Origin: Chloroherpetonaceae bacterium
GTDB lineage: Bacteria; Bacteroidota; Chlorobiia; Chlorobiales; Thermochlorobacteraceae
Direction of reading: 5' to 3'
Length of the DNA stretch: 64,000 nucleotides
NCBI GenBank assembly: GCA_025056565.1
Contig: JANWWA010000005.1
Location: 7,219 to 71,218, forward strand
Shown: positions 16,560-36,149 of the stretch, piece by piece
How the letters are laid out: each line of letters begins with the position of its first letter
Position numbering within the stretch: the first letter of the stretch is position 1
The notes under the pieces: generated by a model
What the model was told of the DNA's origin: nothing
The model's database searches: none
The model's input: only the letters and a program-made list of their open reading frames with translations
Translations under genes and position numbers: made by a program

Positions 16560-17170
16560 TGTGGCGTAGAGTGGTACTATGGGCAGTAGCGTGGGCAAGC
16601 TTGACAAATGGCGGGTGGGCACAACTATCAGGAGAATCACCAAAGCTAACCAGCCAAGTATTTGCTGAACTCTACGCCGAGCACTTAGCATTAGAACTGC
16701 AGCAGCAACCGCTACCTAAAAACTTGCTCTTTAAGCCAGCACCACTGTCTACCTTTCAAGGCTTCTTAGATGCCGCACTGCAAACCAAGCTCCTTGCACT
16801 GGGTTTTTCACTCTATGAGCGGGATAGCTTGGAGCAAGCTATGGAGTTTGCGACACTCGAGTGCTACGCAACACAAGCTGAGTTTTTCTACGAGTGGCTA
16901 ACTGACAACAAAGCCAAGCGCTGCTTCGAACTGATGGCAGTCTGCAAAGTCCTAAGTAGGGACAGACAGACGCTTTTGGTGAAAAATCTAACTCTTGCGA
17001 GGCAAGATACAGTTCAAGCAACTCATCTGCAGCGCCTCGAGGATAAGCGCTTCCCAGAAACCGTCAAAACGCCAGTGCCGTCGCTATGGGAGAGTGCAGC
17101 AACACCAATGTTGGTCGTGTCCGCAATTGGAATTATTGTATTTTTATTTTTTAGTGTTCGAAGCCGTTAG
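16559..17170 (+). CDS. Exported protein with C-terminal membrane anchor, unknown function
   Basis: No family recognised. The 203-residue product has a signal peptide (WRRVVLWAVAWASLTNGGWAQ), a helical middle part of about 130 residues, and a C-terminal membrane helix (MLVVSAIGIIVFLFFSV) ending in SRS-R. The start codon overlaps the stop of the barrel gene, and bamD begins 24 bases after it, so the three are probably made together. It may be a periplasmic partner of the barrel, but nothing in the sequence proves this. Confidence 0.7.
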   Translation: MWRRVVLWAVAWASLTNGGWAQLSGESPKLTSQVFAELYAEHLALELQQQPLPKNLLFKPAPLSTFQGFLDAALQTKLLALGFSLYERDSLEQAMEFATLECYATQAEFFYEWLTDNKAKRCFELMAVCKVLSRDRQTLLVKNLTLARQDTVQATHLQRLEDKRFPETVKTPVPSLWESAATPMLVVSAIGIIVFLFFSVRSR

Positions 17171-17194
17171 TTCGACTCAAATGCTTGGAAACGA

Positions 17195-18103
17195 ATGCGC
17201 ATTGCTCATTTCTTCTGCATACTGCTTGGCACAGCCATAGTAAGCGACATAGTAGGGTGTGGCTCAGCGCAGACCTATTACGATGAGTCGCTTAGGGGAC
17301 GGTTTGAGTATGCAAAGTCGCTCTTCGAGCAAAAAGACTACTACGCTGCACAACTGGAGTTCAACAAGCTCACTTATCTTAGCCGCGCAACGGAGTATGA
17401 AGATGACGTACAGTTTTACTTAGCGCAAAGTTACTTTTTCTACGAGCAGTATTTGCTAGCTGCAGATGCATATCAGACGCTGCTGCGCAATACGCCGTCG
17501 TCGCCCTACAGCCGCATTGCGTTTTTTCAGATTGCAATGTGCTACTACAAGCTTGCTCCGATTCACAGCTTAGACCAAGAGTATAGCAAGCGAGCGATTG
17601 CACAGTTTCAAAGTTACATTGACACCTATCCAGCACCCGATTCTGAAAAAGTAACAAAGGAAATCCGAGACTTGCGACTTTTGGCAGCCGAAGTGGAGGA
17701 CTCTGCACGTCGTGCAACCTACGAAGCTTTAATTGCGCGCCTTGTGGCACAGCTGGGGCAGCTCGACACGCTTCGACTGGCAGAGGAAAAAATTATGGAA
17801 TGTCGCAACAAGTTAGCCCTCAAAGCCTTAGAGAGTGCAAGGCAGTATATCCAGCTACGTGCCTTTCGTGCTGCGACAATTTATTTTGATGAAATTCTGA
17901 CAAACTACCCTGATAGCCCCTACTACGAGGAAGCGTTACTAGGGAAAATCGAGACGCTGGTTGTGCGGGAAAAGTGGAGCGAAGCCGAAAGTGAAATTGA
18001 AAAGTATGAAGAAAAATTCCCTGAGAAGAAGTACAAAGTGGAAGGCTTCAAGGCTGTAGTGAAAGAGCAGCTCTTACAAAGCACACAAACGACTGCGAAA
18101 TAG
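17195..18103 (+). CDS. bamD: Outer membrane assembly lipoprotein BamD
   Basis: A 302-residue TPR lipoprotein of the BAM complex, which folds beta-barrel proteins into the outer membrane with BamA. The signal peptide ends in lipobox IVGC with the lipidated cysteine at residue 22. TPR-type helix pairs follow (for example FEYAKSLFEQKDYYAAQLEFNKL and AADAYQTLLRNTPSSPYSRIA), in the BamD/YfiO arrangement. It lies 24 bases after the anchored-protein gene and 2 bases before nadD. Confidence 0.88.
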   Translation: MRIAHFFCILLGTAIVSDIVGCGSAQTYYDESLRGRFEYAKSLFEQKDYYAAQLEFNKLTYLSRATEYEDDVQFYLAQSYFFYEQYLLAADAYQTLLRNTPSSPYSRIAFFQIAMCYYKLAPIHSLDQEYSKRAIAQFQSYIDTYPAPDSEKVTKEIRDLRLLAAEVEDSARRATYEALIARLVAQLGQLDTLRLAEEKIMECRNKLALKALESARQYIQLRAFRAATIYFDEILTNYPDSPYYEEALLGKIETLVVREKWSEAESEIEKYEEKFPEKKYKVEGFKAVVKEQLLQSTQTTAK

Positions 18104-18105
18104 CT

Positions 18106-18726
18106 GTGCAAACACTTGTGCTATTTGGCGGCACATTTGACCCGCCACATTTAGGACACCTCGCACTGCTAACGCTCACCCGAGAACTGATTTGCCCCGA
18201 TAAAGTGATTCTGAGCGTCTCACGCAATCCGCTTAAAGCAGGCACCACAGCGACCGACCAGCAGCGCTTTGAAATGGCACAGCAGCTCGCCGAGGAGCTG
18301 AACGCAACAGGTAATTGCTTCGAGGTGAGTGACTGGGAACTAAAACAAAACAGTCCATCATATACGATAGAGACACTGCAACACTGGCAAGCCCAGTATC
18401 CATCGGCACGCTGGCTACTAGCAGTTGGCGAAGACAATTACCGAATCTTCCACCGCTGGAAGTCGCCTGAAAAAATTTTGGAAATAGTGGAGTTACTTGT
18501 GTTTTCAAGGCAAGTGCAAAACATAAGCAGGGAGTCTATGCAGGCGTTTGCAAATGCGAAAGTGCATTTCATTCAGTTGGACCTCTCTATTTCATCGAGC
18601 GAATTGCGGCAGAGGCTCTCAGACCCTGTGCAACGCCAGCAAGCAATGCGCAAAGTGCCCTCCGTCATTGCACGCTACATTGAAGCAAACAAACTCTACA
18701 GCGCTTCGGCTAGCGTTACAGAGTAG
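18106..18726 (+). CDS. nadD: Nicotinate-nucleotide adenylyltransferase
   Basis: A 206-residue nucleotidyltransferase that makes deamido-NAD from nicotinate mononucleotide and ATP in NAD synthesis. The GGTFDPPHLGH motif binds ATP at the very start, and SISSSELRQRL near the C-terminus is the second nucleotide motif. The start is GTG at 18106, two bases after the bamD stop, and places the GGTFDP motif at the usual position. It ends just before the converging epimerase gene. Confidence 0.95.
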   Translation: MQTLVLFGGTFDPPHLGHLALLTLTRELICPDKVILSVSRNPLKAGTTATDQQRFEMAQQLAEELNATGNCFEVSDWELKQNSPSYTIETLQHWQAQYPSARWLLAVGEDNYRIFHRWKSPEKILEIVELLVFSRQVQNISRESMQAFANAKVHFIQLDLSISSSELRQRLSDPVQRQQAMRKVPSVIARYIEANKLYSASASVTE

Positions 18727-20077: not shown

Positions 20078-22795
20078 TTGAACGCAGTAAGATACTTCCT
20101 TGCCTTGGTATGTTGTGCTGCTGCAGTGTGGGCTGAGAAAGCCTTTGCTCAAGTCGAAGGATTTTCTAATGCCCTGCCACCCAGTTCGCTGCTTATCAGC
20201 GACAGGGAGTTTCTAAATGACCTGCTAGCCAAAGACCGCTACTTGGCCTTAGCGTATGAGAATCTGGAAATTCTCTCAAAGGACTTCAGTCAGTCACCGC
20301 CAACCATTGAGCGGCTGAGAGCTATTCGTATTGAGGGATTTGGGCATCTAGAAGGTGAGCAAGGCGAATTTCACAATTTTCCAACCAAAGCGGAGTATGA
20401 GCGATTCTATCAATTTGCACGCTATCAGGCAGTGCGCAACGAGCTGAATGCTTACCGCAAGAGTTTGTTAGCGGCAGCGCCACGCTCAACACTCGAAAAA
20501 GCCCTGCGGCTTGATCTCAAGAGTGCTATGCTTCGCTACGAGAAAGGCGACTATATGACTGCTCGCCTCTACTTTGAAGATATCTACGAAACGTATAGCC
20601 CATATTTTAGAAACCTTGACGATGTGCTGTTTCTGCAGGCGGAGTCAAACTTTGCTATCAAAGCGTTTGTAGAAGCAAAAAAGCTCTATGAGCAGCTTTT
20701 AGTGGAGTACCCTGCGTCGCAGTATGCATTGAATGCGGTGCAGCGCATTCTGTTCGTGAGCTATGTCTATGATGACTACAAGCAATTCCAGCGCGATTTT
20801 CGCAAGTATAAACCCTACATTAAGCTCGAGCAAGAAGCAGACTTCAAGGTGTATCTTTTGGCAGGCACGATGGAGTATCGCAATCAGCAGTATGCTCGAG
20901 CAATAGAAGACTTTGCACAGATTCCAGACCGTTCAGAGTGGAAACCGATGGCAGACTTTGCGGCTGGGCTAGCGCACCTAGCGCTGGAAGAGACCAAGGA
21001 AGCCGAAAGAAAATTCCGAAGAATCATTGAGCACCCGTATCTGCCTTGGGACACGAAACTCTCTGGTATCAGGAATGCGGCTGCTATTCAGTTGGCTCAT
21101 CTCCACTACAAGCGCGGATGCAGATTCTTAGATGAAGCACGCCGATTCTACACAGGCGATGAAAAGGAACGTGCAAAAGCCGATTCGACCCTGCAAGCAG
21201 AATTGCGCACGCAACCAGCTGAGCAGCAGCTAGCTGCTTACCAGCGTCAGCTAATAGAAATTCTGAAAAAGATTGAGATTCAAGACACTGCAGTTTTAGC
21301 CCTCGCAAGACGCTTAGAGAGTGAGCTTTCAGCAGTCTCCACTTCTGAGCAGGAGTTGCGTCAGTTCAATGAGGCACTGAAGGAGAATGTGCAGAACATT
21401 GAAGCGGCACAAGAAGGAATCGACCGCATTCGTCTAGAACTGGCAGCAGCACAAGAGGAAGGGCGTCTGGCAGCTGAGCAGATTGCAAGGATGAGAGAGA
21501 AACTGGCGAAAGCGCAGCAGGAAGTACTCTTCCAGCGCTTCAATGCCTATCGCAACTTTGCGCTGGCAGAGTTTGCGCTGGCAGAGCGATACTTCAATGA
21601 AGTCAGCCGTGGCAACCCTGACAGAGACCTCGCTGAGTTAGGAGTGCTTTGGGTAAAGTTTAAGTCAGGGCAGTATCGAGAGGCAAAAAGAGAGATTGAA
21701 AGCTACTTCAGAAAGTTCCGCACATCGGAGAATCTCTACCAAGCAATGTTCCTGGCTGGATACATCACGCAAGCCAAGTATCCAGAAGACCCGCGGTATG
21801 CACTAAAAGATTACAACTTCGTCTATAACGGCTGGACAGGGCTTCAGTATATTGAGAAGTTCTTGGCGAAGAAGGCTATTTTGCGTCAGCAAATGTTGGT
21901 TGCACAGACGGTCGGCTCTGCATCAGAGAATCCAAGCGAAGTCTCAGCAGCTACAGAGATTAGCAACGATATTGCAAAAGCTATAGAGTTGCTTAAATTT
22001 GACCGCCGCGCAATTGTGGGCTCCGAGACAGGCCTTGTCGCCGATGAGCGTCGCCCCGCTTTAGAAGAACTGGCAGGAAAACTGAGTGCTGCAACGGGCG
22101 CTGGTAACAACACGCTTAGAGAGGCAGCAAGCAGTGCAAGTCGAGCAATTAAGGAAATTCTTGAATTAGCCACGCAGTCTGTCTCTAACGACACAAGGCT
22201 ATTTCTCACCCATGCACCACTGCTGGTGAGCAGTGAGCTGGCAGATTACCGAAAGAACTTGGAGTTCTACAAAAAGGTGGCACGCGAGGAAATCGCACGC
22301 TCAGAAGAGCTGATTGCACGCCTGCAGCCCTCTGCTATCAGAGCTGGAGATCCACGGCAGCAGTTGCTAAGCAGCTACTACCTTAACAACGCAAAGTCGG
22401 TGCGCACACTGGCAAGCGCTATGCTGACGGCGTTGCAGCAAAAAGAATTCTTTGGCGAGGAAACTGTTGAGCGTGCAGGCACTGTAGCGCAGTATGCGTT
22501 TAGTGCGCTAACATATGATGAAGTGAAAAAACGCCGGGAACAAGTAAAGAGCTTCGAGCGAGTGGTAAATATGCTCAAATCCTCAATTCGGAAGAAAATC
22601 AATCAGCTGGAGCTCTTCCTCGAACAAGTCAAGAAAGAGGAGGAAGGCACAGCAGTGGTGGTGGTAACGAAAGCAGATTTGCTGCAGAAAGAGTTCGAAG
22701 AAGTGTTGAGTGATTTCCGGCGAGCATTTTTCATTGGGACAGATTACCTATTGCTGAATCGTCAAGGTGAGCAAAAGAAAGTGCTGCTGCCGTAG
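20078..22795 (+). CDS. Exported TPR and coiled-coil protein, first gene of the ExbB/ExbD-type block
   Basis: A 905-residue secreted protein. The TTG start at 20078 is chosen because it has an AGAGG site and begins a clean signal peptide (RYFLALVCCAAAVWAEKAFAQ). TPR-like helix pairs occupy about 130-310 (YFEDIYETYSPYFRN, AKKLYEQLLVEYPASQYAL). A coiled coil of about 115 residues (367-484) follows, then more TPR-like units around 480-560, and a helical C-terminal half ending in another coiled coil. It looks like a periplasmic scaffold. The proton-channel gene begins 72 bases later. No exact family is recognised; a CpoB/YbgF-like or Glt-like partner role is inferred from context only. Confidence 0.85.
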   Translation: MNAVRYFLALVCCAAAVWAEKAFAQVEGFSNALPPSSLLISDREFLNDLLAKDRYLALAYENLEILSKDFSQSPPTIERLRAIRIEGFGHLEGEQGEFHNFPTKAEYERFYQFARYQAVRNELNAYRKSLLAAAPRSTLEKALRLDLKSAMLRYEKGDYMTARLYFEDIYETYSPYFRNLDDVLFLQAESNFAIKAFVEAKKLYEQLLVEYPASQYALNAVQRILFVSYVYDDYKQFQRDFRKYKPYIKLEQEADFKVYLLAGTMEYRNQQYARAIEDFAQIPDRSEWKPMADFAAGLAHLALEETKEAERKFRRIIEHPYLPWDTKLSGIRNAAAIQLAHLHYKRGCRFLDEARRFYTGDEKERAKADSTLQAELRTQPAEQQLAAYQRQLIEILKKIEIQDTAVLALARRLESELSAVSTSEQELRQFNEALKENVQNIEAAQEGIDRIRLELAAAQEEGRLAAEQIARMREKLAKAQQEVLFQRFNAYRNFALAEFALAERYFNEVSRGNPDRDLAELGVLWVKFKSGQYREAKREIESYFRKFRTSENLYQAMFLAGYITQAKYPEDPRYALKDYNFVYNGWTGLQYIEKFLAKKAILRQQMLVAQTVGSASENPSEVSAATEISNDIAKAIELLKFDRRAIVGSETGLVADERRPALEELAGKLSAATGAGNNTLREAASSASRAIKEILELATQSVSNDTRLFLTHAPLLVSSELADYRKNLEFYKKVAREEIARSEELIARLQPSAIRAGDPRQQLLSSYYLNNAKSVRTLASAMLTALQQKEFFGEETVERAGTVAQYAFSALTYDEVKKRREQVKSFERVVNMLKSSIRKKINQLELFLEQVKKEEEGTAVVVVTKADLLQKEFEEVLSDFRRAFFIGTDYLLLNRQGEQKKVLLP

Positions 22796-22814
22796 GAAAT
22801 TTCAAATTCTGTTG

Positions 22815-22822
22815 TAACTTTG
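22815..22822 (+). promoter_or_regulatory. Candidate -7 box of the proton-channel operon
   Basis: TAACTTTG fits TAnnTTTG and lies 46 bases upstream of the ExbB-like start, after the stop of the TPR gene. It would allow separate expression of the downstream genes. No -33 TTG is at the right distance. Confidence 0.4.
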
Positions 22823-22867
22823 GCATAACGAACTTAAACACAAAACAAACTTCTACTGGAGGCTCAA

Positions 22868-23650
22868 ATGGCAAAAAAGAACAAGGTATTTTTGTGGGCG
22901 ATTATCATTCTCTCAGCAGTGGTCTCGTTTGCAGTATATTTCTTCGTGTTTGGGCCAGCCCCAAAAGGAACGCTTCTTCACAATTTTTATGAAGGCGGTC
23001 CGCTTGTAGCAGTGCTAATGGCGAACCTACTTGTGCTCATTATTGTGGTAACGGAGCGCGCAATTGCTTACAACAAGGCGAATGGCAAGGGTAACTTGGA
23101 TAAACTTCTGAAAGAAGTAAAACAAGACTTAGAGCGAGGCGCAATCGTAGAAGCCTTGCAGAAGTGTGAAAATCACAACAGTGCAGTTTCCACCTCCATT
23201 ATGAGTGGTTTGGAGCGCTATCGCTCACTTGATGAAGTAGAACCGCGCTTCAATGCTAAAATTCAAGAGGTTCAAAAAGCGATTGACGAGGCGGCAAACT
23301 TTGAGTCAGCACAGTATGAGACCAACCTTACCCCGATTAAGACGATTGCGACGATTGCAACGCTCATTGGTCTGATGGGTACGACCATCGGTATGATTCG
23401 CGCGTTCAACGCTCTGGCGGAAACGGGTGGCACGCCAGATCCAGCTAAGCTCTCTGGCGCTATCGCCGAAGCGCTTTATAACACCGCCGGAGGACTTTTA
23501 GCCGCTATCTTAGGGACAGTGGCATACAACTACTTCAAGGCAGAGATTGATAACTTCACATACTACATTGACGAAGCAGCTTTTGAAGTGATTCAAACGC
23601 TGACCATTGCTCGTCGCACACTTATCTCTGAACGCGAGCGCGCACAGTAA
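22868..23650 (+). CDS. MotA/TolQ/ExbB family proton channel protein
   Basis: A 260-residue inner-membrane protein that forms a proton channel with ExbD/TolR partners and powers trans-envelope work. Membrane helices are at about 9-28, 44-62, 155-178 and 198-220. The family core is seen in LTPIKTIATIATLIGLMGTTIGMIRAF and the following GAIAEALYNTAGGLLAAI. A first extra helix (WAIIILSAVVSFAVYFFVF) before the usual one is notable. A GGAGG ribosome site precedes the ATG. It leads the channel, ExbD, ExbD, TonB-like gene order. Confidence 0.93.
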   Translation: MAKKNKVFLWAIIILSAVVSFAVYFFVFGPAPKGTLLHNFYEGGPLVAVLMANLLVLIIVVTERAIAYNKANGKGNLDKLLKEVKQDLERGAIVEALQKCENHNSAVSTSIMSGLERYRSLDEVEPRFNAKIQEVQKAIDEAANFESAQYETNLTPIKTIATIATLIGLMGTTIGMIRAFNALAETGGTPDPAKLSGAIAEALYNTAGGLLAAILGTVAYNYFKAEIDNFTYYIDEAAFEVIQTLTIARRTLISERERAQ

Positions 23651-23660
23651 TGGGTAGTAG

Positions 23661-23687
23661 TGGGTCGGGAGAAAAAGCCCCGACCCA
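23661..23687 (+). other. Intercistronic hairpin between exbB-like and exbD-like genes
   Basis: TGGGTCGGG and CCCGACCCA form a nine-pair stem. No T run follows, so it is more likely an mRNA-stability or partial-termination element that sets the channel/ExbD ratio than a true terminator. Confidence 0.6.
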
Positions 23688-23737
23688 ACTGTCGTTGAAG
23701 TGACTGTGAAACGAGATTAAAAAGGAAGGAAAGGTAT

Positions 23738-24238
23738 ATGAACTTTTTTGGATTTTTTATGCACGGGGGCGAAGAGATTGATCTTGCCCCGCTAGTTGAT
23801 ATCGCATTTTTGCTCCTCACTTTCTTTATGATGACCACGGTGTTCCGTGCAACGGATAAGATTCAGGTCGAGACACCGCAATCAAACTCCGCTGCAAAAG
23901 AGCCGACAAAGCGTTATGTGATTGTAACGGTATCGGACAGTTCTGACAAACACGATACGCAAGTGGTGGTCAATATGGATGAATACAAGGTGCGTATGAC
24001 CGCTTTTCAGGGCACGCAATATGAAAAAGAAGCGGCTGGAACAGACGGCGTGTTGCTTAGGGATTGGAGAAAAGAGCTTTACGAAGTATTGCTTCGTGCA
24101 CGGCAGGCTGACCCAGGTCAGACAATCGTGCTCAAGGCAGACAAGAATGCAAAGTTTAGCGTGATTAATGAGGTGATGATAAAAATGAAGGAAGTAAAGT
24201 TTGACCAAGTGCAGATGATTACGCAAATGGAAAAATAA
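23738..24238 (+). CDS. ExbD/TolR family protein (first copy)
   Basis: A 166-residue partner of the proton channel. A short cytoplasmic start is followed by one membrane helix with the proton-carrying aspartate (IDLAPLVDIAFLLLTFFMMT), then a periplasmic domain of about 120 residues. The C-terminal part (TIVLKADKNAKFSVINEVM) is the typical ExbD fold that binds peptidoglycan or TonB-like partners. A good AAGGAAGGAAAGG site lies upstream. Confidence 0.94.
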   Translation: MNFFGFFMHGGEEIDLAPLVDIAFLLLTFFMMTTVFRATDKIQVETPQSNSAAKEPTKRYVIVTVSDSSDKHDTQVVVNMDEYKVRMTAFQGTQYEKEAAGTDGVLLRDWRKELYEVLLRARQADPGQTIVLKADKNAKFSVINEVMIKMKEVKFDQVQMITQMEK

Positions 24239-24254
24239 AAGGAAGGAGGATAGT

Positions 24255-24854
24255 ATGGCAGAAGCGCTGCGTGATAAGGGCAAAACAGTTAAAATCAATA
24301 TGCGCGAAGGAAAAACCAACGCGCAAGCAAGGAAAATCAAGAAGTATAATGAAAAAAGTGATGAAACTTCCCATGTCGACCTTGCGCCAATGGTGGACAT
24401 TGCCTTTCTTTTGCTTACGTTCTTTATGATGACAACCTCGTTTGCAAAGCCGAATGTCTTCCAGATGGGACTGCCCGAGCCACCGAAGCCGAATGCTGCA
24501 CCGAGTGCCGTAGACCCGAAGCTGATGCTCACGATTCAAGTGTCCAAGACAGGGAAAGATGGTGTGTTTATGCTACGCGGAATTGAGAAAGAAGGAAACA
24601 CGCCTGCTTACACAAAGTTTGAAGAAATCCGCGCAAAGGTAAAGGCGATCCGAGACGAGATTCAAAATGACCCGAACCTGAGCAAGTATGATGTGGTAAC
24701 CGCAATCAAGATTCATCCAGATGCAAAGTATGATGATATGATTGAAGTGATGAATGAAGTTTTTGATGCGGGTGTACGCAAGTGGGCAACTGTAGAATTA
24801 AAGCCAGATGAAGCAAAGAAGCTGGAAGAACTGGAAGCAAAGGTGAAGAAGTGA
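24255..24854 (+). CDS. ExbD/TolR family protein (second copy)
   Basis: A 199-residue ExbD paralogue 16 bases after the first. It has a longer basic cytoplasmic start (about 40 residues) and almost the same membrane segment (VDLAPMVDIAFLLLTFFMMT), including the key aspartate. The periplasmic domain is quite different from the first copy and ends in a Lys/Glu-rich helix. Two ExbD proteins beside one channel protein are seen in Bacteroidota TonB systems and in AglQ/AglS of Myxococcus. The strong GGAAGGAGG site supports the ATG. Confidence 0.94.
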   Translation: MAEALRDKGKTVKINMREGKTNAQARKIKKYNEKSDETSHVDLAPMVDIAFLLLTFFMMTTSFAKPNVFQMGLPEPPKPNAAPSAVDPKLMLTIQVSKTGKDGVFMLRGIEKEGNTPAYTKFEEIRAKVKAIRDEIQNDPNLSKYDVVTAIKIHPDAKYDDMIEVMNEVFDAGVRKWATVELKPDEAKKLEELEAKVKK

Positions 24855-24900
24855 AGTATTTTCTGAGCAAACCTCTCGCGAACTAAACACAACAAAATTT

Positions 24901-25905
24901 ATGAAGACCAAAACTAGTGAAATCGGCTCACAGATAACGCTAAGATGGTATGCCGAAAAGCCGTTTGCATATGCGATTCGCGAGAAGTATCAGCAGCGAA
25001 TGATTATTGGGTTTATCTTTGGAACATCGCTCTTGGCATTGGCATTACTGTCTTACTTCATTTCGGGGGCACTGGAAGGTGGAGAAGTGGTAGAAAAGCG
25101 CAAACCTGTTGTGATTAACGTTCAAGCTGACCCACCACCGCCTCCATCAGAGGTGCAAAAGCAGGAAATTACAGAGACCTCAACAGGTGGGGGCGAAATT
25201 GCAAGTGATGCAGTGGTAACCTCCAGTCAAGCAGCAGCTGTCTCTGAAGCGGTCAGCGCCGGTGTCGAGGCAGCGCTAGGTGAAGCACTGGCATCAGGCT
25301 TGCTAGCAGAATCGGGCGGCGGTATCCCTGTAGCAATGGAGGGCGCAGTCGGTGATGCAGGTTTCTTGGGGAGCACAGCAGCAGGCGGACTGAGAGGTCT
25401 TGGTGCAGTGGGTGTAGGTGGATTGGGTAGCACAGGTCTGGGGGGCGGCGATGGCTCTGGGATTGGCTTTGGCACACAAGGAGCAGGAGGAGGCTTAGCA
25501 GGACCGGGGAGTGGGAAAGGGCTTGGTGGTGGAACGGGCAGAGGACTTGGTGTAGGGCGAGCAGGCAAACTGGCTCTTAGCACAAACTTTGCAAAAATGA
25601 GCGTCGGAGCAGGCGGTCGCAGTAAGGAAGAAATTGAAGCTGTAGTCAAAGCAAATCAACCCGCCATATATGCTTGCTACGTAGAGGCACGCCAAGCTGG
25701 AGACATTAAAGGCACGATGGTCGTACGTGTCTTAATTGCACCAGATGGCGCCGTGCGTGATGCGCAGATTGTAAAGACCTCTATCACCAACCAAAACATG
25801 CAACGGTGCATCGTGGGGAAAATGCGACGAATGAAGTTCAAGGCAATTAGTGGTAGCACCATTCAGCAAGTTGATATTCCCTACGACTTTACCGAATCGG
25901 AATAA
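24901..25905 (+). CDS. TonB-like protein with AgmX/PglI-type C-terminal domain
   Basis: A 334-residue energy-transducing protein. One membrane helix lies at about 34-55, followed by a Pro-rich start (VQADPPPPPSEVQ), an Ala/Ser region, a Gly-rich spacer of about 85 residues (137-223) and a C-terminal domain (about 238-333). That domain carries IEAVVKANQPAIYACYVEA and later MQRCIVGKMRRMKF; its two cysteines and the GDIKGTMVVRVLIAPDGAV core match the AgmX/PglI (GltJ/GltG) tail domain rather than a classic TonB box. In myxobacteria these proteins link the inner-membrane motor to the outer envelope. The gene sits directly after the channel and ExbD genes. No ribosome site is evident before the ATG. 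Confidence 0.82.
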   Translation: MKTKTSEIGSQITLRWYAEKPFAYAIREKYQQRMIIGFIFGTSLLALALLSYFISGALEGGEVVEKRKPVVINVQADPPPPPSEVQKQEITETSTGGGEIASDAVVTSSQAAAVSEAVSAGVEAALGEALASGLLAESGGGIPVAMEGAVGDAGFLGSTAAGGLRGLGAVGVGGLGSTGLGGGDGSGIGFGTQGAGGGLAGPGSGKGLGGGTGRGLGVGRAGKLALSTNFAKMSVGAGGRSKEEIEAVVKANQPAIYACYVEARQAGDIKGTMVVRVLIAPDGAVRDAQIVKTSITNQNMQRCIVGKMRRMKFKAISGSTIQQVDIPYDFTESE

Positions 25906-26026
25906 GCACTGTGTAGCCATCACACTGCTGAAAAATAGAAGAGAAGGGGGGGCTTTGCTAATAAGTAGGAAGAAGCAAGGACTCCTTCTTCGAGAGGCTT
26001 TATGCAATCGTTTAATGAGGTGATAA

Positions 26027-29000
26027 ATGAGCAACTGCAGTTACCCGACATCAAATATGTTGCACAAATACGTGGTCTGTGTTTTGCTCTTACTTCTCTA
26101 CACTACCCTCTCTCCAATTGCACTCACCGCTAAGGCGAAAGGAGATGATAAGCCGAAGGGAATTGATACTGCCAAAGTAATGGCAGAACAGGAAAAATTG
26201 GTCGTGCTATCGAGCCTTGTCCCGAGAAATTATCTGACGGCAAGAACAGGTGATGCAGTAACTGACAATGTCTTTTCCAACTTTACAATTCCACAAATCC
26301 AAGTTATTCTAAGCGAGTATGAAAAGAAGTTAGAGCGAAGCAAGGCACAAAAGCAAAAGATTTTAGATATTGGGTTGGAATTAGGTGAGCAGTTTACGAA
26401 GATTTTTGCAGACAGCAAAGTAATTGACGAGGTGGCTATTCGCTACGCTGATATGCTTTATGAAAAGGTATCTGATGAGTTTTACGCCAAGTATGCAATT
26501 TATACCGAAGAACTGCGCAAGTATCTGAACAGCCCCGAGTACGAGCAATACTCCATTGCTGAGGCACGATACGATTCTATTGCGGCAGCTGGCGGTGATA
26601 CAATCAGAAACCCACGACCGACACCACCGCCAGGCAGACCAATTCCACCTGACCCGCAGCTTGACCGTGTCATTGCGCTCTACGACAAAATTATCAATGA
26701 AATGCCCGAAAGTCCATATGTAGTAGATGCGCTTTACAACAAAGCATACATTCTCGGAGAACGATACGGTGATTATCGGGCACTGAGAAATCTTTCAGCA
26801 CGAGAGATTCGGCAGAAGAAAGAGGAAGCAATTGCACTGCTGCAGCAACTGACGCGCAAGTATCCTGACAGCCGCTACACGGTTGATGCCTATATGCTCA
26901 TTGGTGAGTATCTTTTCAGTGCACCAAACCGTGAGCAGCCTGCCAAAACGCGCGAAGCGATTCCATACTACCGCAAAGCCTTAGACCTGATTTTGAGGAA
27001 TGGGCAACGTTCTGAGTATTACAACCAAGCGCTGTATAAGCTTGGTTGGTGTTTCTTCCGCTTAGAGAACTATTCTGAGGCAATTGCTTACTTTACGCAG
27101 CTAATTGAAGACATTGAGCAGGCAGAAGAAATTTTCAGCGGCAAGATTATGCCTGATTACATTCGCCCCGATATGAAACGGGAGGCGATTGAATATATTG
27201 CCGCTTCTTTCATTGAAGAGCAAAACCGAGTTGATCGTAGCAAGACGGCTATTGAGCGGGTTGACAAGTTCTATGCAGCAATGCCCCCGCGCCGATACAT
27301 TCCTCTTGTCTATGAAGAAATAGGTCGCAAGTATGAGGAACTGCTTGAGAGTGCAGAAAAAGTTAACGAGGTGTGGATTGCCTTGCTGCGGCGCTTCCCA
27401 AACTATGAGCGCGCACCGTTTATTGCCGATAAAATTATCTACCAGCTTTACATCACAACGATTAATGGTGAAAAGAAGGAAAAAGAACTTGAAGAGGCTG
27501 AACAAAGACTTTACGAAGAGCGCAAAAATCTTTTCTACAATTATGGTCGCAAAAGTAAGTGGTATGCTGATATGAAGCGACGTATGCAGGCACAAGCCCT
27601 AGGCCTACCACTTGACTTCAAAGATCAGAGCGTATTTCCAACAGGTTTTGACCCAAGAACATTAGAGTATGCAGATAGCATCTCTAAGGTTGCGCTATTC
27701 CAGAATATCGTGTATGCGATTAGTTTTGCGCGTCTTCTTGACGGCGAGCTGCCCTTGCCACTGGGACGAGAATATATGCAGCCGAACATTCCTGATTTGA
27801 AGCGCGCTAAGCAGTTTTATGAGCAAGCAGTCAAAGATATTGAGAACTATACTGACATCTTCTCGCGCTATGACTCTACGGCTTATTTTGCAGAGTTCCA
27901 GCGCTCGCTGATTTTAGACTTCAAGCTGAATCGACCCAGAGATGCCTTGCCCGGCTACTTAAATGTAGCAAGGAATTTTGCATGGGATTTTCATCGCAAA
28001 GAAGCGATTGGCAATGCATATGCTATTATTGACTCAATTACCCGTGCTCAGAAAATCGGTTTCTACACACCAGGGCTGGACACCACTGCAAATTTTGCAG
28101 GGAAGCGCGATTCACTGACAGCAGACGAAAAGCTTTTCTTAGAAGTCGTTGATACCTACATTAGACTTTTCCCACACGATTCTATCAGCGTCAATGGCAT
28201 CAAGCAATTGGCGGATTTTTATATCGCCAAAGGCTATGTTGATGAATACAAGGAAGTGAATTCGCGACTGGCGCTCTACTACCCAATACAAGAAATCTAC
28301 CCAGGCACGCTCGTGAATTTGGCGGCAAATGCATATGAGCTGAAGGACTACACACGCAGCGAACAAATTGCGAAAGCAATTTACTACGGACGGCGCACCA
28401 AAGATCCCAAAGATGCGGAGCGGCGCGCATATGCTTACCGACTAATTGGCAGCTCAATTGATAAGCGAGCACAGTATTATGTTGGAAAAGGCAATTACTA
28501 TGCTGCAGCTAAGGAGTATGAGCGGATTACCAAAGAAGTGCCAAAGTGGGAAGAAGCGGATAAAGCGGCACGGAATGCTGCATTTTACTATGTCAAAGCA
28601 GGGAAAACCGAAGAAAGTGTCCGAATTAGTAACTACCTTTTTGAAAATGCAAATGACCCACGCTTCAAGGTCGAAGCATTGAAGGATATTACATACGCAT
28701 ATGAGCAGGCAAAGAGCTACGACAGTTTGGGTTCTTCGCTTGAGAGGCTCTACGAATTTGTAAAAAATGACTCGATTGACCTAGCGGAAGATGCGCTCTA
28801 TCGTGCAATCCGCGCAAGAATGGCAGCGGAAAATTGGAAAGAAGCAATTCGCGTCTCCGATAAATATCTGGCAAAGTTTGATACAACTCGGCGTGGCGAC
28901 GACGTAGCATTCAACAAGATTGACCTGAATGTCAAAGATGGTAGACCCGAGGGCGTCTTCGAGGCATATGGAGCATATGCAGACAAGTTTGTTACAAAGC

Positions 29001-32000
29001 CACGTAGCGTCGTTGCATACTTCAAGCGCGGCGAGATTTTGGAGGAACGCGGTAACATTGAGGGAGCAAAGGCAGAGTTTACCAAAGCTACCGATCGATA
29101 CTATGAACTGGCAAAGAAAAATGAAAAGAACACGAAAGCAGTTGCAGGTATTGCGGTTAGCGAGAGTATGTTTCGCCTTACAAAGTATCTCCTTGATGAG
29201 TACAAGAAAGTAGGTGTAGGTGTAACGCTAAAGCCAAGCGCATTTGTGCCACCACCGAAGCCTCCAAAGCAGAAGCAGCAACCACCTAAGATTGCTACGA
29301 CAACAAAGAAGAAGACAACACAGGCAGCAAAACCTGCTCCGCCACCAAAGCCGAAAGAACGTGATGTCGCATATGACACCACAGCGAAATATGCACTGAG
29401 GAGAAAAATTGAAAAAAATATTCTCGAACTCTACAAACTCGGTGGATACCGCTCTATCGATGCGCTCTACAATGCGGGATTTGTTGCGGAAAACTTAGCT
29501 GACGCATTTAGCAAAGTGCCTGATACGCTGGCTTCAATCCGAGACCCGAAAACAGGTAGAGGTATTATTCCTGCAAAATTGACGATTAACCAAGTTCAGG
29601 CAAATGTTGATGCAGCAGCATTCTACGAGCGCGCAGGAAATGACTATGCTAAAACCTATCAGGACCTCACCGCAGCCAGAGGTGATTTTGAAAAAGCCTC
29701 TAAGGAACAAGATTCTATTCGGCGTGCTCTGATTAATCCAAACGACTCGGCAAATGTAGCACTGCAGCAAGCGATTGCAAGTCTAGGTAAGATTACAAAC
29801 CGAGAGCAAGGAGAATTGGCGCTCGCAAAACTTGTGCCTGTAACTGAAAAGTGGATTTCGAAGATTGGTATTAGCAATGGTCTAGACGTGCCCGATGAAG
29901 CGTTCCTCGCAACGATTGATGCAACTACTGAGATTGCGAAGTCGAAAATCTCTGAAATGTATTACAAAGCAGGGAAACTCGCTGAAAAGAATGTTTACAC
30001 TTACCTTGCGGCACAAGCTGATGAGGAGGCAAAGAAAACAACACGCACATTTGGAAAAGGACGCAGTAAAGTTACAATTTATTTAGGCGATGTAGTTGAG
30101 CTAGTGCAACTGTCACAAATTGCACAGCAGTTTGTAAGGCCAGCTGTTGAAGTGGCAATTAATACCTATCGACGTGGTGTAGAAAGAGCAGAGAAACTAA
30201 AACTGCAAAATCAATATGTAGAGCTATCGAAAGCAGCTATCAATGAGCTGGCAACCAAAGCAGCCGAGCGCAGCGACTCGCTTGCCAGAGCAGCAACTTT
30301 GCTATTTGATCAGCTGGATAAGCAGTATCGCAATAAGCTCGATAGCTTGACAGGTCAGCCAAAAGCCAAAGACATCGTGGACTTTGCAGTGCTGGCCACA
30401 AAGATGAATTTCATTATCAACACAAACTATAACTTGACACTGAGTGCCTTAGCAGAGTACGGACAAGCCTTGCAATTGCTCAAAGATGCAAATGCACCAC
30501 AAAACCGATATAATGAAGTTGCAACACGAACCTCACGCTTCATCTACGAGATGGGCGAAGGCTACCGTCAGCGTGCAGAACTTTTGAAAAAAACGGTAAA
30601 GCAGTGGGATGAACTCTCCAAAGCTAATCCTGACAAATTCTGGTATTCAGATTATGGTGCAGTTAAGTATGACCCGATTGCTGAAATGTGTCAGAAAACG
30701 GCTGGCTTAATTTTAGCGCAAGTTGTAGCGCTCTTGGTGGACTATGATATTCAAGACGAATATACGAGCCGCGCTTTAATTTCGCTTGGGAAAATTGACC
30801 CAGGCCTATCTAAGCTCATCGGCAAGAAAGGAGAGACGACCGTTGCGACCTCGGGCGGAAGTGGCTGGAAAGTAATCGAGCAGATTGAGCCGGGCAAAGA
30901 ATACGATTGGTTCAAGCGCGATTACAGCGATGCAGCGTGGAAATCTGTCGTAGAAAATGATGAAACTCAGCGTTTCCGTTATTTTGTCCGAGAAACTGAT
31001 ACAACCTTCACAACCAAAGAATTGGATACACCAGCCCGAGCAATCTGGTATGAGCGTATTGTGCCCGGTGCACAGCCAGAGCAAACGCCTGCGCCACAGC
31101 AAAAGGAGGAGCCAAAGAAGGAAGAGCAAAAAGAAGAACCAAAGAAAGAGGGAGAAGCTATACCGACCGAACAGCCTGCTGCAAAGCCCGAGCCAAGCTA
31201 CCTCGCAATTGGAGAGACTATCGTACTGAACCTGACTTTTGAGACAGGAAAAGCAAAAATCACAGGTGGTGCTGAAGCATTAGATAGTCTTGTAGCGAAG
31301 TTCAAGGAAGACAAAAACCTTGTTGTGGAAATTACGCCGAGCGTGGTCTTGGATAGCGGTAGCAAAGTAAAACCTGCTGTGTTAGCGAAGCAACGCTATG
31401 ATGCAATTGTAAAGGAGCTGACGAGCAAGGGTGTTAAGAAAACGCAGCTAAAGCAAGGGAAGTCAATAACTGATACGGTAACTACCTTCAAAGTTATAAA
31501 GTCAAGCCGTAAAACAGGTCGGCTAAATTGGTGGTCGAAGCAAAACCTTGCAAGCAAGAAGGTAACGCTGGTGATGTATGAACAGCACTTTGCGCAAAAA
31601 GGCAAAAAGAAAAAAGCGACAAAAAGCAAAGATGAAGAGTTGCAGGAGAAAGTAAAAGAAGCAGTAGGAGCACTGGGGAACATCACCGTAGAAGTAAAAG
31701 ATGCGGTGGTAACGCTGTCAGGTGAAGTCGCTGACGAAACCGCAAAAACAAATGCTGAAACTGCAGCAAGGAGTGTAAAGGGAGTGAAGAGCGTAACAAA
31801 CAACCTCACAGTGAGACCACCGACGCCACAAGGACCTGTAAAACCACAGTATGTCTACTTCCGTAAGGAATTTACTTTTGAGGGCGCAAAGGAAGTAGCG
31901 CAGCTGATTATGACTAACGAATTCCCGTTTGACTCACTGGAAGTGTATGTGAATGATGTGCAAGTAGGGCCTGATAAAATCGTAAAGTTCAAGAACATCT

Positions 32001-32254
32001 CACCACCCGATTCTGCGTTAGATAACCAATTTATCGTGCTCAATATCTATGATTATGTGGTGCCAGGCAAAAACTTGGTGGCAATCCGGGCACCAGGTAC
32101 TTTGCCAAAGGGAGCAGGACTAAAGATAGCTATTAATATTGCTTATTTTGAGGAGCTTAAGGAGAGCGACCTTAAAGCACTTATTCCAAAGCTCAAAGAG
32201 TATCGCAAGAAGAAGGAAAAAGAGCTCGAGAAGAGTATGCCAAATCCACAATAA
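26027..32254 (+). CDS. Giant exported TPR protein with OmpA-like and BON-like C-terminal domains
   Basis: A 2075-residue protein with a signal peptide (starting at the first ATG or, better fitting, at the ATG at 26057: LHKYVVCVLLLLLYTTL). Most of residues 60-1600 is helical with many TPR-like units (for example ALYKLGWCFFRLENYSEAIAY), broken at about 1068-1111 by a Pro/Lys-rich linker. After a Trp-containing beta-rich segment (about 1609-1678) and a Lys/Glu/Pro linker come an OmpA-like segment (about 1729-1798) and a BON-like segment (about 1868-1931, GNITVEVKDAVVTLSGEV). The end is a beta-sandwich-like region. It probably spans the periplasm and touches peptidoglycan or the outer membrane. 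Function is inferred from the neighbouring motor genes. Confidence 0.85.
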   Translation: MSNCSYPTSNMLHKYVVCVLLLLLYTTLSPIALTAKAKGDDKPKGIDTAKVMAEQEKLVVLSSLVPRNYLTARTGDAVTDNVFSNFTIPQIQVILSEYEKKLERSKAQKQKILDIGLELGEQFTKIFADSKVIDEVAIRYADMLYEKVSDEFYAKYAIYTEELRKYLNSPEYEQYSIAEARYDSIAAAGGDTIRNPRPTPPPGRPIPPDPQLDRVIALYDKIINEMPESPYVVDALYNKAYILGERYGDYRALRNLSAREIRQKKEEAIALLQQLTRKYPDSRYTVDAYMLIGEYLFSAPNREQPAKTREAIPYYRKALDLILRNGQRSEYYNQALYKLGWCFFRLENYSEAIAYFTQLIEDIEQAEEIFSGKIMPDYIRPDMKREAIEYIAASFIEEQNRVDRSKTAIERVDKFYAAMPPRRYIPLVYEEIGRKYEELLESAEKVNEVWIALLRRFPNYERAPFIADKIIYQLYITTINGEKKEKELEEAEQRLYEERKNLFYNYGRKSKWYADMKRRMQAQALGLPLDFKDQSVFPTGFDPRTLEYADSISKVALFQNIVYAISFARLLDGELPLPLGREYMQPNIPDLKRAKQFYEQAVKDIENYTDIFSRYDSTAYFAEFQRSLILDFKLNRPRDALPGYLNVARNFAWDFHRKEAIGNAYAIIDSITRAQKIGFYTPGLDTTANFAGKRDSLTADEKLFLEVVDTYIRLFPHDSISVNGIKQLADFYIAKGYVDEYKEVNSRLALYYPIQEIYPGTLVNLAANAYELKDYTRSEQIAKAIYYGRRTKDPKDAERRAYAYRLIGSSIDKRAQYYVGKGNYYAAAKEYERITKEVPKWEEADKAARNAAFYYVKAGKTEESVRISNYLFENANDPRFKVEALKDITYAYEQAKSYDSLGSSLERLYEFVKNDSIDLAEDALYRAIRARMAAENWKEAIRVSDKYLAKFDTTRRGDDVAFNKIDLNVKDGRPEGVFEAYGAYADKFVTKPRSVVAYFKRGEILEERGNIEGAKAEFTKATDRYYELAKKNEKNTKAVAGIAVSESMFRLTKYLLDEYKKVGVGVTLKPSAFVPPPKPPKQKQQPPKIATTTKKKTTQAAKPAPPPKPKERDVAYDTTAKYALRRKIEKNILELYKLGGYRSIDALYNAGFVAENLADAFSKVPDTLASIRDPKTGRGIIPAKLTINQVQANVDAAAFYERAGNDYAKTYQDLTAARGDFEKASKEQDSIRRALINPNDSANVALQQAIASLGKITNREQGELALAKLVPVTEKWISKIGISNGLDVPDEAFLATIDATTEIAKSKISEMYYKAGKLAEKNVYTYLAAQADEEAKKTTRTFGKGRSKVTIYLGDVVELVQLSQIAQQFVRPAVEVAINTYRRGVERAEKLKLQNQYVELSKAAINELATKAAERSDSLARAATLLFDQLDKQYRNKLDSLTGQPKAKDIVDFAVLATKMNFIINTNYNLTLSALAEYGQALQLLKDANAPQNRYNEVATRTSRFIYEMGEGYRQRAELLKKTVKQWDELSKANPDKFWYSDYGAVKYDPIAEMCQKTAGLILAQVVALLVDYDIQDEYTSRALISLGKIDPGLSKLIGKKGETTVATSGGSGWKVIEQIEPGKEYDWFKRDYSDAAWKSVVENDETQRFRYFVRETDTTFTTKELDTPARAIWYERIVPGAQPEQTPAPQQKEEPKKEEQKEEPKKEGEAIPTEQPAAKPEPSYLAIGETIVLNLTFETGKAKITGGAEALDSLVAKFKEDKNLVVEITPSVVLDSGSKVKPAVLAKQRYDAIVKELTSKGVKKTQLKQGKSITDTVTTFKVIKSSRKTGRLNWWSKQNLASKKVTLVMYEQHFAQKGKKKKATKSKDEELQEKVKEAVGALGNITVEVKDAVVTLSGEVADETAKTNAETAARSVKGVKSVTNNLTVRPPTPQGPVKPQYVYFRKEFTFEGAKEVAQLIMTNEFPFDSLEVYVNDVQVGPDKIVKFKNISPPDSALDNQFIVLNIYDYVVPGKNLVAIRAPGTLPKGAGLKIAINIAYFEELKESDLKALIPKLKEYRKKKEKELEKSMPNPQ

Positions 32255-32273
32255 TGGGAAGGAGAAAAATATT

Positions 32274-32639
32274 ATGTATCGTCTATGGATACTGTGCCTG
32301 CTGGTGGCGGGGATAGCGATATTTAGCTCGCAAGATGCATTTGCACAAAAGCGTCCAAAGAAAGAAAAGCCGAAGAAAGAAAAGGTGGTGGAGCGAAAGA
32401 AAGGTGAATACGAAAGCATCTCACTTGATAAAATCGAAATTACCTTCCGTGTGCAAACACCAAAAGTGAAGTTCAATATTGAGCGAATTCCGATAGATGT
32501 GAAGACTGACCACGCACGCTTTGGTGACATAAGCAAAGAAGTGGAAATGCGCGGGCATAGAGTGCTCTACAGCGACCGAATCTATGAAAAGCCCATAGAG
32601 ATTTCACCGAGAGAAGTGGTGAATCGTGAACGGCAGTAA
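32274..32639 (+). CDS. Small exported basic protein, last gene of the block
   Basis: A 121-residue product. The ATG at 32274 has a GGAAGGAG site and begins a signal peptide (YRLWILCLLVAGIAIFSSQDAFAQ). A Lys/Glu-rich stretch (KRPKKEKPKKEK) and a beta-rich domain follow. It starts 19 bases after the giant TPR gene, so it belongs to the same transcript. No family is recognised; a longer upstream frame from 32139 overlaps the giant gene and is not supported. Confidence 0.75.
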   Translation: MYRLWILCLLVAGIAIFSSQDAFAQKRPKKEKPKKEKVVERKKGEYESISLDKIEITFRVQTPKVKFNIERIPIDVKTDHARFGDISKEVEMRGHRVLYSDRIYEKPIEISPREVVNRERQ

Positions 32640-32653
32640 ATCTGTATGAGGAA

Positions 32654-33200
32654 TTAAAACTGCACACCAAAGGCAATTAGGGCGACAAGTAAGACAAATT
32701 TGGTGTCAAAGCCAATTGTGAAATCTCCATCACTGGATTGATAGGCAGCAAAAATCCTAGGTTGATAGAAGCATTCCGAGTGTTACGAGTCTGCGAGTAG
32801 ATACCACCGAAAGCCCCATAAAGACGCCCACCGAGCCACTTTGTCAATTGCATATTGTAACCAAACTCCGCCGTCAGGACATACTCACGACAATTGAGAC
32901 TGGAGGCAATTAGCGCATTTGTGCAACATATAGCTGGTTGGGAAATGTAATGCCAAGCCTTGCTCCATACTCTATGTGGAAAGGTAGCTGGAGCGGACTA
33001 TCCGAGTAGAATGAAAATCCTGCGCCGAACCCAGCAAGAAAAGAAACTTTCTTTGGAGGTAGCTCTGCAATAGGCTTAATGCCTACAGAAGGGAAAGCAG
33101 GAAAAGACTTCGGGTTATCGCTGCTTAAAATGAAGCCCTGCCCCTTGATGGGGAACAGAGCTATTAAAGCACACAGTCCAGCGAAAAAAATGCGCCTCAT
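32654..33200 (-). pseudogene. Outer-membrane beta-barrel gene broken by two frameshifts
   Basis: The first frame (32910-33200) encodes a signal peptide (RRIFFAGLCALIALFPIKG) and barrel-like strands, then stops. The same protein pattern resumes in a second frame (ALIASSLNCREYVLTAEFGYN, through about 32720) and again in a third, which ends VALIAFGVQF at 32654. A C-terminal phenylalanine is the hallmark of barrel proteins. Together the three pieces make one barrel of about 180 residues. The gene is either a decayed pseudogene or an intact gene with two indel errors in the assembly. Confidence 0.7.
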
Positions 33201-33298
33201 ATTTTGAAACTGTTGTGGTTAACCCCAAGCTGAAGCGTCACAACAATTTTTGCCCTCGCCCCATAGCACCGAGAAGAGGGCTGTGAGAAATTTCTCAG

Positions 33299-34696
33299 TT
33301 ACCGCTGTGGCACATCACCTGAATTGCTGCTAGCGGCAGCAAGCCGAGCTTTGCCAATTGCTTCTGAGAGTTTAGCGGGTGGCAAGCGTAAGCTATTTAG
33401 CCCTTTCTGCAAGGCGTCCTCGCTATCTCGACCTAATCCTTTCACATTCACCGAAACGGAGCTAAGCACGCTTTGGGTATTGCGATTGATGAAGAAAACC
33501 TCGAAGGTGATGTCTTGCAGCACCATCTGGCCGTTTAGGCTTTGAACGGTGCCTGCTTCTCTGGCTGTAAAGGAGCCGCGTGCAACGATGGGTGCATTAC
33601 GCTTGACCGTCACACCATTTTTCTCCAGAGCTTGCACCATCATCTTGGCAAGCATCGCATTTTGCCCATCAGTGATGTCGTTATCTGCCATTTCCACATC
33701 GCAGGCGAAACTGCCAATGCCCTCAACCGTGAAGTCAAAAGGTAGCGTAGTGATGTTGCGTAGCTCAGAGCGCAGTGAAGCAGAAAGGCGAGAAAGGTCA
33801 ATCGTGGCGGTAACTTTACCCTTGTTGCCTTTGATGCCAACAGCTTGAACGACATACTCGAGCTTAGCCATTCCATCTTCACCAGTGATAACAGTCTCTA
33901 CAATCTCGTCGCCAGCCTTGAAGGTAATTGGCACGCCGCGAATCGGCTGTCCTTTCGAGAGGGCTTGCACAACAAACGGCATGGGCAAGTTTTCACCGAT
34001 TTTGCCTCGTTGGTTGTCGCCCGACACTTTTTTGAGCGAAATCATAGATAGCTCATCACGCACTTGCGACTCAATGAATTCTGGACGCACATCCTCAGGC
34101 AGCGCATAACCTTTTGCAACGATGTTGAAGAAAACAACCTTCGGGCCGACATCTTCTGCCAGTGCTAAGGCTTCCATATAGGCATTGACGGCAGAGCCAA
34201 TGTCGCCTTTCTCAGAAAGAGAGGCGCCAGAAGCAATTTTTTCACGGATTTTGGCAATTTCTGCTTCAAGCTCGGTTTTCAAAGTGTTGGTGAATTCCTC
34301 ACGATTCAGCACTGCCAGTGCAAACGCTTTGCCTGTGACCTTCGACTCAAAAGTTTCAGCAATTTCAAGCCCTGTGAGGGTCATTTTGTCGACCTGTGTT
34401 TCGATGCGGTCTTCAAGGTCACTGGTCATTAGTGCGCTATTGCCGACGATTTTTTCTGTTTGCACGAGTTTCGTTTTGCTGGATACGGTGACCTTGAATT
34501 GTTTAGCAATTTCGGCTTTGGCTTTAGATTTGGCTTCATCAAGAGCACGAGCACCCATTCCTTGACCGACCCCGATCCAATAGAGGTCTTGCGGATACTT
34601 AGGGTGCTTGCCAGTAGTCACCCAAGCAGGCTGTGGTTGCGCAAAGGCAGTGCCAGCGGCAAAGCACAAGAGTGTAATCCAGATATGCGTTTTCAT
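33299..34696 (-). CDS. Exported LPP20-family-like protein
   Basis: A 465-residue exported protein with a signal peptide (IWITLLCFAAGTAFAQ) but no lipobox cysteine. Residues 25-150 fit the LPP20 domain (PAWVTTGKHPKYPQDLYWIGVGQ, then a helix-rich AEIAKQFKVTVSS). A central Ig-like segment (about 230-300, KAGDEIVETVITGEDGMAKL) and a C-terminal part with SVNVKGLGRDSEDAL follow. LPP20-domain proteins are surface or periplasmic and of unclear role. The next gene upstream is 17 bases away on the same strand and is also exported. Confidence 0.75.
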   Translation of the reverse strand: MKTHIWITLLCFAAGTAFAQPQPAWVTTGKHPKYPQDLYWIGVGQGMGARALDEAKSKAKAEIAKQFKVTVSSKTKLVQTEKIVGNSALMTSDLEDRIETQVDKMTLTGLEIAETFESKVTGKAFALAVLNREEFTNTLKTELEAEIAKIREKIASGASLSEKGDIGSAVNAYMEALALAEDVGPKVVFFNIVAKGYALPEDVRPEFIESQVRDELSMISLKKVSGDNQRGKIGENLPMPFVVQALSKGQPIRGVPITFKAGDEIVETVITGEDGMAKLEYVVQAVGIKGNKGKVTATIDLSRLSASLRSELRNITTLPFDFTVEGIGSFACDVEMADNDITDGQNAMLAKMMVQALEKNGVTVKRNAPIVARGSFTAREAGTVQSLNGQMVLQDITFEVFFINRNTQSVLSSVSVNVKGLGRDSEDALQKGLNSLRLPPAKLSEAIGKARLAAASSNSGDVPQR

Positions 34697-34713
34697 GGCT
34701 CAATTCCTCCAGG

Positions 34714-35952: not shown

Positions 35953-36149
35953 AGTCTCTCCTTTGCAGTTTTGGGTTAAGTGTCGTGGTGTTTGTGCGAA
36001 CATTTGACGAGATGGTTACAAACTCTGGTCAGGCGTGTGCGCCAGCGCACAGTGCAAAGTTCGCACTCTGCTGCAAGAAAGAAAAACGGTAGAAGCTACT
36101 GAAAAGCAAGGGCGATAGGTTAGGGCAAAAGGCAACGATGCGCTTCACT

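Follow-up and report, generated by a model that had tools for sequence, protein, structure and literature searches.

How Chloroherpeton glides has, to our knowledge, not been explained so far, and a block of seven genes found in a Chloroherpetonaceae bacterium (assembly GCA_025056565.1, contig JANWWA010000005.1, positions 7,219–71,218) raises the question of whether its products could power such movement. The window is the whole 64,000-nucleotide stretch that was analysed, and the block occupies positions 20,078–32,639 of it. A sequence-only reading of this DNA had proposed that the block encodes a proton-driven trans-envelope machine related to gliding motors. Our analysis makes it very probable that the block specifies a proton-driven trans-envelope force transducer, which we class as a new form within the TolQ/ExbB-type motor family. 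The fuller proposal, in which this transducer has SprA-dependent surface motion or export as its output and contributes to gliding, is put forward tentatively.

A seven-gene block with the parts of a force transducer

The gene order and tight spacing first described for the block hold: all seven open reading frames are present, collinear on a single strand (the + strand, to which all window coordinates below refer), separated by 72, 87, 16, 46, 121 and 19 bases, and they recur in this order in relatives. The core of the block consists of (i) P0002 (22868–23650), a 260-residue ExbB/TolQ-type channel subunit (MotA_ExbB, 97 bits, 7e-28) whose PDB matches are TolQ and ExbB; (ii) P0003 (23738–24238), a first ExbD protein (ExbD, 74 bits, 1.1e-20) with its transmembrane Asp in VDIAFLLLTFFM; and (iii) P0004 (24255–24854), a second ExbD protein (73 bits, 2.6e-20). 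Residue alignment shows that the proton-binding transmembrane Asp is intact in both ExbD proteins.

The next gene encodes the putative transducer, P0005 (24901–25905), a TonB-like protein of 334 residues. According to alignment and a transmembrane scan, it comprises a 34-residue cytoplasmic end, a single transmembrane helix (residues 35–53), a Gly-rich linker and a tail with two conserved Cys. The AgmX/PglI character that the sequence-only reading had given to this tail is borne out by the curated model NF033768, which scores 67 bits, 27 above its cut-off of 40. The C-terminus also passes the TonB-type model TIGR01352 (34.4 over 27.1) but not Pfam TonB_C (19.8, under 24.6), and the search against the PDB gave a weak TonB match.

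The core is flanked by exported proteins. Upstream, P0001 (20078–22795; TTG start) is a 905-residue TPR/coiled-coil protein with a signal peptide and a TPR_6 match (2.8e-7); its AlphaFold model is all-helical (mean pLDDT 65), and orthologues occur in the lineages f1, f2 and f3 as well as in a distant class, f5. A fold search with this model found nothing but generic TPR superhelices at low TM-scores and was uninformative; one of the many matches was SprE, part of the translocon of the type IX secretion system (T9SS). Downstream of P0005 lie the giant protein P0006 (26027–32254; 2075 residues) and P0007 (32274–32639), a small exported protein of 121 residues in which an alignment of orthologues shows a conserved QTPRVKF-like motif. 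P0007 probably starts at the ATG at 32274, given its signal peptide and GGAAGGAG upstream, rather than at the TTG at 32139. The block is adjoined by convergent genes (window 32910–36003) for an LPP20-type protein and a DUF6175 protein.

A giant TPR protein with a split jelly-roll end

TPR matches, orthologue alignments, a structure model and a fold search together describe P0006 as an exported TPR/helical protein up to about residue 1600, followed by a C-terminal jelly-roll in two halves. The first half (about residues 1612–1678; approximately 30860–31060), recognized by alignments, β-strands in the model and a fold match, is kept in Chloroherpeton and in f5. The second half (about residues 1939–2058; approximately 31840–32200) is likewise kept as far as f5, and its FRK and GKN core is invariant across all lineages. 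In the fold search, the P0006 model, which is of moderate confidence (mean pLDDT 66), matched the β-sandwich of GH156 and GH2 enzymes, and the jelly-roll part of the f5 orthologue matches an α-L-rhamnosidase model. On our reading of the alignment and the model, the two conserved halves would build one jelly-roll.

The stretch between the halves is variable. The lineage of the window has an OmpA-like part there (approximately 31230–31600), which has no Pfam match and resembles the OmpA C-like structure 9uu2 (probability 1.00, TM-score 0.55 on the target), and a BON domain (residues 1869–1931; 31631–31819; PF04972, 55 bits, 6.9e-15), whereas Chloroherpeton has a repeat-rich linker. According to the alignments, the orthologues of Chloroherpeton and f5 have neither domain, so both lie outside the conserved machine; they are inserted into a conserved fold of the sugar-binding type. 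The OmpA-like and BON-like ends first reported for P0006 thus exist, but the conserved end is the split jelly-roll.

The middle helical part of P0006 has a paralogue that stands as a separate protein elsewhere in the genome (L054:9012-10667 in G000, the genome of the window, L055:9242-11167 in G003 and L056:9584-10498 in G009); in G004, an AgmX-tail protein (L098:12742-13149) is encoded about 3 kb from such a paralogue. A wider spread of P0006 was considered when a profile including f5 gave weak matches in about 46 other Bacteroidota. These were rejected as homologues: most are generic TPR-only proteins of about 1000 residues, and the loci inspected contained no other block genes.

Conservation of the block and its linkage in two arrangements

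The block is collinear in the genome that we take to be Chloroherpeton thalassium (G009), in G012, G010, G003 and G005, and in named relatives, namely Candidatus Thermochlorobacter aerophilum (P0006 87% identical), Thermochlorobacteriaceae bacterium GBChlB and Chloroherpetonaceae bins. The window itself is assigned to a Candidatus Thermochlorobacter species. P0002 is 73–94% identical in the other block carriers of f1, f2 and f3, and recurrence in three lineages at this level of ExbB identity means that the linkage goes beyond chance. P0006 was found in eleven f1–f3 genomes and in none of the 86 genomes of family f4, taken as Chlorobiaceae from its kinship, so that its distribution separates Chloroherpeton and its relatives from the nonmotile Chlorobiaceae; one genome, G008 (81% complete), has a P0006 paralogue only.

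A further comparison is with f5, a distant Bacteroidota class represented by four genomes, all of which have P0006. There, the order is P0001, P0006, P0007, ExbB, ExbD, ExbD, AgmX, with P0007 again beside P0006, and the set lies 3′ of dnaE, trxA and trxB, neighbours that the block also has in Chloroherpeton. The f5 channel belongs to another subfamily (about 30% identity to the block channel). As the TPR module is found linked to a channel set in two distant lineages and in two arrangements, a functional bond between both modules is indicated. The common neighbours also point to old vertical descent and, therefore, to loss of the block on the Chlorobiaceae branch. A BamD-like gene and nadD lie 5′ of the block in the window (16559–18726), and the same pair occurs in f5 upstream of dnaE-trxA-trxB and the block, a further sign of old synteny.

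The tail of the transducer, which says more than the pattern of one channel with two ExbD proteins, follows the block: of the 158 Bacteroidota sampled, 10 have a tail above the NF033768 cut-off, and every one of these carries the block, whereas none of 29 Chlorobiaceae has such a tail.

Several variations were seen among carriers. The first ExbD of f5 has Asn at the position of the proton-binding Asp, the second having Asp (L051:3058-3648, L052:3078-3653, L053:3001-3576); an ExbD heterodimer with a single Asp would be unusual. An additional exported TPR protein of about 400 residues is encoded 3′ of the block in Chloroherpeton, G012, GBChlB and T. aerophilum (L029:2704-3885, L025:1952-3181, L021:19156-19899, L060:16606-17802) and is missing from the window. 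P0001 is broken into frames of 347 and 499 residues in the OS assembly of T. aerophilum (L060:3969-6687), reflecting an assembly error or a damaged gene. Finally, several f1 and f3 genomes contain solitary P0005 paralogues, AgmX-tailed and TonB-like, without a channel of their own (L101:12268-13248, L121:8227-9285, L122:9666-10673, L123:7276-8283, L127:8540-9520); these may share the motor of the block.

Relation to known TolQ/ExbB-type systems

Among published systems, two come nearest in architecture: the Agl-Glt core (PMC3169522) and, in the PVC group, the TPR-tolQ-tolR-tolR-vWA modules (PMC12204202). With the Agl-Glt/Nfs machinery of Myxococcus (AglR, AglQ, AglS; GltC, GltD, GltE, GltG, GltI, GltJ), the block has in common a TolQ-type channel accompanied by two proteins of the ExbD type, an AgmX/PglI tail on the transducer and exported TPR proteins, one of them giant. 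Unlike that system, it has all seven genes clustered, its transducer has neither an FHA nor another cytoplasmic domain, its TPR proteins match no Glt model, its giant protein ends in a jelly-roll and it has no outer-membrane Glt proteins. The PVC-group modules likewise combine a TPR protein, a TolQ-like protein, two different TolR-like proteins and a membrane-tethered transducer, but the latter has a vWA head in place of the AgmX/TonB-like tail, and no equivalent of P0006 or P0007 is reported (PMC12204202).

Apart from the AgmX/PglI tail, the relationship to Agl/Glt families suggested by the sequence-only reading did not emerge from the curated models. GltG (56 of the 650 bits needed) and GltJ (43 of 450) have no full-length match in the block, no FHA domain was found, and no block gene resembles GltA, B, F, H or K; when the TPR parts of P0001 and P0006 were compared with GltC, GltD and GltE, they matched generic TPR, YbgF and BamD models alone. 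Nor, as detailed below, did the models give clear orthology to a Tol-Pal or TonB-uptake system, a result that would have counted against a gliding role. Judged by such models, the block does not appear to be a member of the Agl-Glt, Tol-Pal or TonB systems.

A candidate motor for SprA-linked gliding

Chloroherpeton glides, Ca. T. aerophilum is considered gliding and the Chlorobiaceae are nonmotile (PMC9318685). SprA follows a parallel distribution: it is present in the genomes on the carrier side (full length in most, with 1300 bits or more) and in f5, and absent from the Chlorobiaceae. T9SS type A sorting domains were detected in three block-carrying lineages, those of Chloroherpeton, G012 and an f1 relative; an earlier survey had reported T9SS in Bacteroidetes only (PMC4793230). 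As regards the statement that these bacteria glide without known gldK-N genes, its GldL and GldM part agrees with our searches, which gave no match over cut-off in block carriers with profiles whose sensitivity outside Bacteroidia is uncertain; a GldK-like protein of the FGE fold at L022 reached 91 of 350 bits. PilT was not found in block carriers either. Like the T9SS motor GldLM/PorLM, the block would form a motor that is driven by protons, sits in the inner membrane and extends to the outer membrane of SprA-bearing bacteria, but the components are not homologous by the searches made. Gliding, SprA, T9SS sorting domains and undetected GldLM therefore mark out the block as a candidate for the motor behind SprA-linked gliding.

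A mechanism can be sketched as follows. A pentamer of ExbB, a presumed stoichiometry, would rotate about a dimer in which the two unlike ExbD proteins are probably paired, each providing a proton-binding Asp. The rotation would move the AgmX-tailed, TonB-like rod P0005, which in turn may pull a periplasmic scaffold of P0006 and P0001. The jelly-roll end of the scaffold, helped in the window lineage by the OmpA-like and BON modules, would hold peptidoglycan or surface glycans. The output would most probably be felt at the outer membrane or cell surface, where SprA-dependent proteins would be moved or exported, which would contribute to gliding. For this output, we favour SprA-linked surface motion or export, with Tol-like envelope work a close second. 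A stricter version, in which the block is the missing motor of the SprA-type T9SS and of Chloroherpetonaceae gliding, with ExbB-ExbD-AgmX in place of GldLM and the giant jelly-roll TPR protein as a periplasmic track or drive rod, seems unlikely.

The link with SprA and gliding is weak, and several observations weigh against it. First, the neighbourhoods of SprA contain no block gene. Second, about 200 other sampled Bacteroidota have SprA, no detectable GldM and no block; hence, SprA without GldLM needs no block, and SprA without GldM had to be rejected as an exact mark of block carriers. Conversely, the AgmX tail was rejected as a mark of all genomes in that state, as it is over cut-off solely in block carriers. 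Third, GldM profile matches are weak outside core families, so that the absence of GldM may reflect sensitivity. Fourth, the correlation with motility amounts to a single branch, the Chlorobiaceae stem: absence of the block, SprA and AgmX, presence of Tol-Pal and nonmotility all fall on this stem and are inseparable by presence/absence within Chlorobia. The proposal of the sequence-only reading that the block is a gliding motor is thus plausible, the block being present in Chloroherpeton and P0006 absent from all Chlorobiaceae examined, but a role in motility is not established by a one-branch correlation on a branch that also lacks SprA. Among the sampled Bacteroidota with SprA, TIGR03517 detects no GldM in about two thirds, so that outside Bacteroidia the T9SS either has a very divergent motor or uses a different one.

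A last point on the same side concerns the combination of one channel with two ExbD proteins, which had been taken as a likeness to Agl. The arrangement is there, but it is not diagnostic because nearly all of the Chlorobia searched have a paralogous exbB-exbD-exbD-tonB set, among them 28 of the 29 nonmotile Chlorobiaceae. The two ExbD proteins of this general set have the same VD-AFLLLTFFM helix as those of the block; the set differs in its ordinary TonB-type tail, in place of AgmX, and in having no TPR partners. In a channel tree built without Myxococcus AglR, the block channels group apart from the general Chlorobia channels, a split that has moderate support (91/91), and the nearest relatives found for the former are the Chlorobia ExbB paralogues.

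Alternative roles

A serious alternative, although we consider it less likely than not, is that the block substitutes for Tol-Pal: by pulling the P0006 scaffold, the motor would tie the outer membrane to peptidoglycan and constrict it during division, the TPR proteins being counterparts of YbgF/CpoB and the OmpA domain that of Pal. One argument for it, which also speaks against a gliding role, is the complementary distribution of the two systems: among 41 Chlorobia searched, a TolQ-type channel without the block occurs in 29 of 29 Chlorobiaceae, and none of the 11 carriers shows TolQ (G010 has a 30% TolQ fragment outside a tol context). At all four Chlorobiaceae loci examined, sequence features and gene order identify a separate tolQ-tolR-tolA-tolB-pal-ybgF operon. 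The block might thus take the place of Tol-Pal, with which it shares the channel family, TPR parts for which YbgF/CpoB models are among the best scores and, in the window lineage, an OmpA-like fold, accompanied in P0006 by BON. Yet the channel and ExbD proteins fall far under the equivalog cut-offs (TolQ, 85 of 221 bits; TolR, 53 or 36 of 127), neither TolB nor Pal was found among the seven genes or their neighbours, and the OmpA-like and BON domains are missing in Chloroherpeton and f5. Moreover, most Bacteroidota lack Tol-Pal (PMC12204202) and also lack the block, so a substitute is not generally required.

Less probable still is a TonB-type energizer serving one polymer or nutrient via an outer-membrane protein, the block being a duplicate of the general Chlorobia set. 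It would fit the 43–48% identity between the block channel and its paralogue, the general Chlorobia ExbB, the TonB-like score of the AgmX tail and the resemblance of the P0006 jelly-roll to carbohydrate-binding modules. However, the ExbB equivalog score is far below cut-off (57 of 206 bits), as are those of all ExbD equivalog models, and no TonB-dependent receptor is encoded in or beside the block. The transmembrane helix of TolA/TonB carries an SHLS motif (PMC12204202), the His of which is absent from the helices of P0005 orthologues, although the general paralogous TonBs also lack it. We know of no uptake system with a giant TPR scaffold, which we count against this role as well.

An Agl-Glt-type motor moving surface adhesins directly and independently of SprA, which would overlap mechanistically with the SprA-linked transducer and differ in cargo, is very unlikely: the tail of P0005, a partial GltG match of the f5 AgmX protein (101 bits) and a giant TPR protein recalling GltI (4132 residues; PMC3169522) favour it, but the Glt models and gene set fail as described above, and GltI and GltJ are reported from Myxococcales and Bdellovibrionales only (PMC3169522).

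Significance

The block names seven genes, present in a species that is in culture and completely sequenced, that bear on gliding and on the energization of SprA without detectable GldLM. If motility or the T9SS depends on it, the block would represent a type of motor for proton-driven surface transport new to the phylum. Even if it serves envelope upkeep, it would exemplify a single accessory module that can be coupled to different ExbB-type channels.

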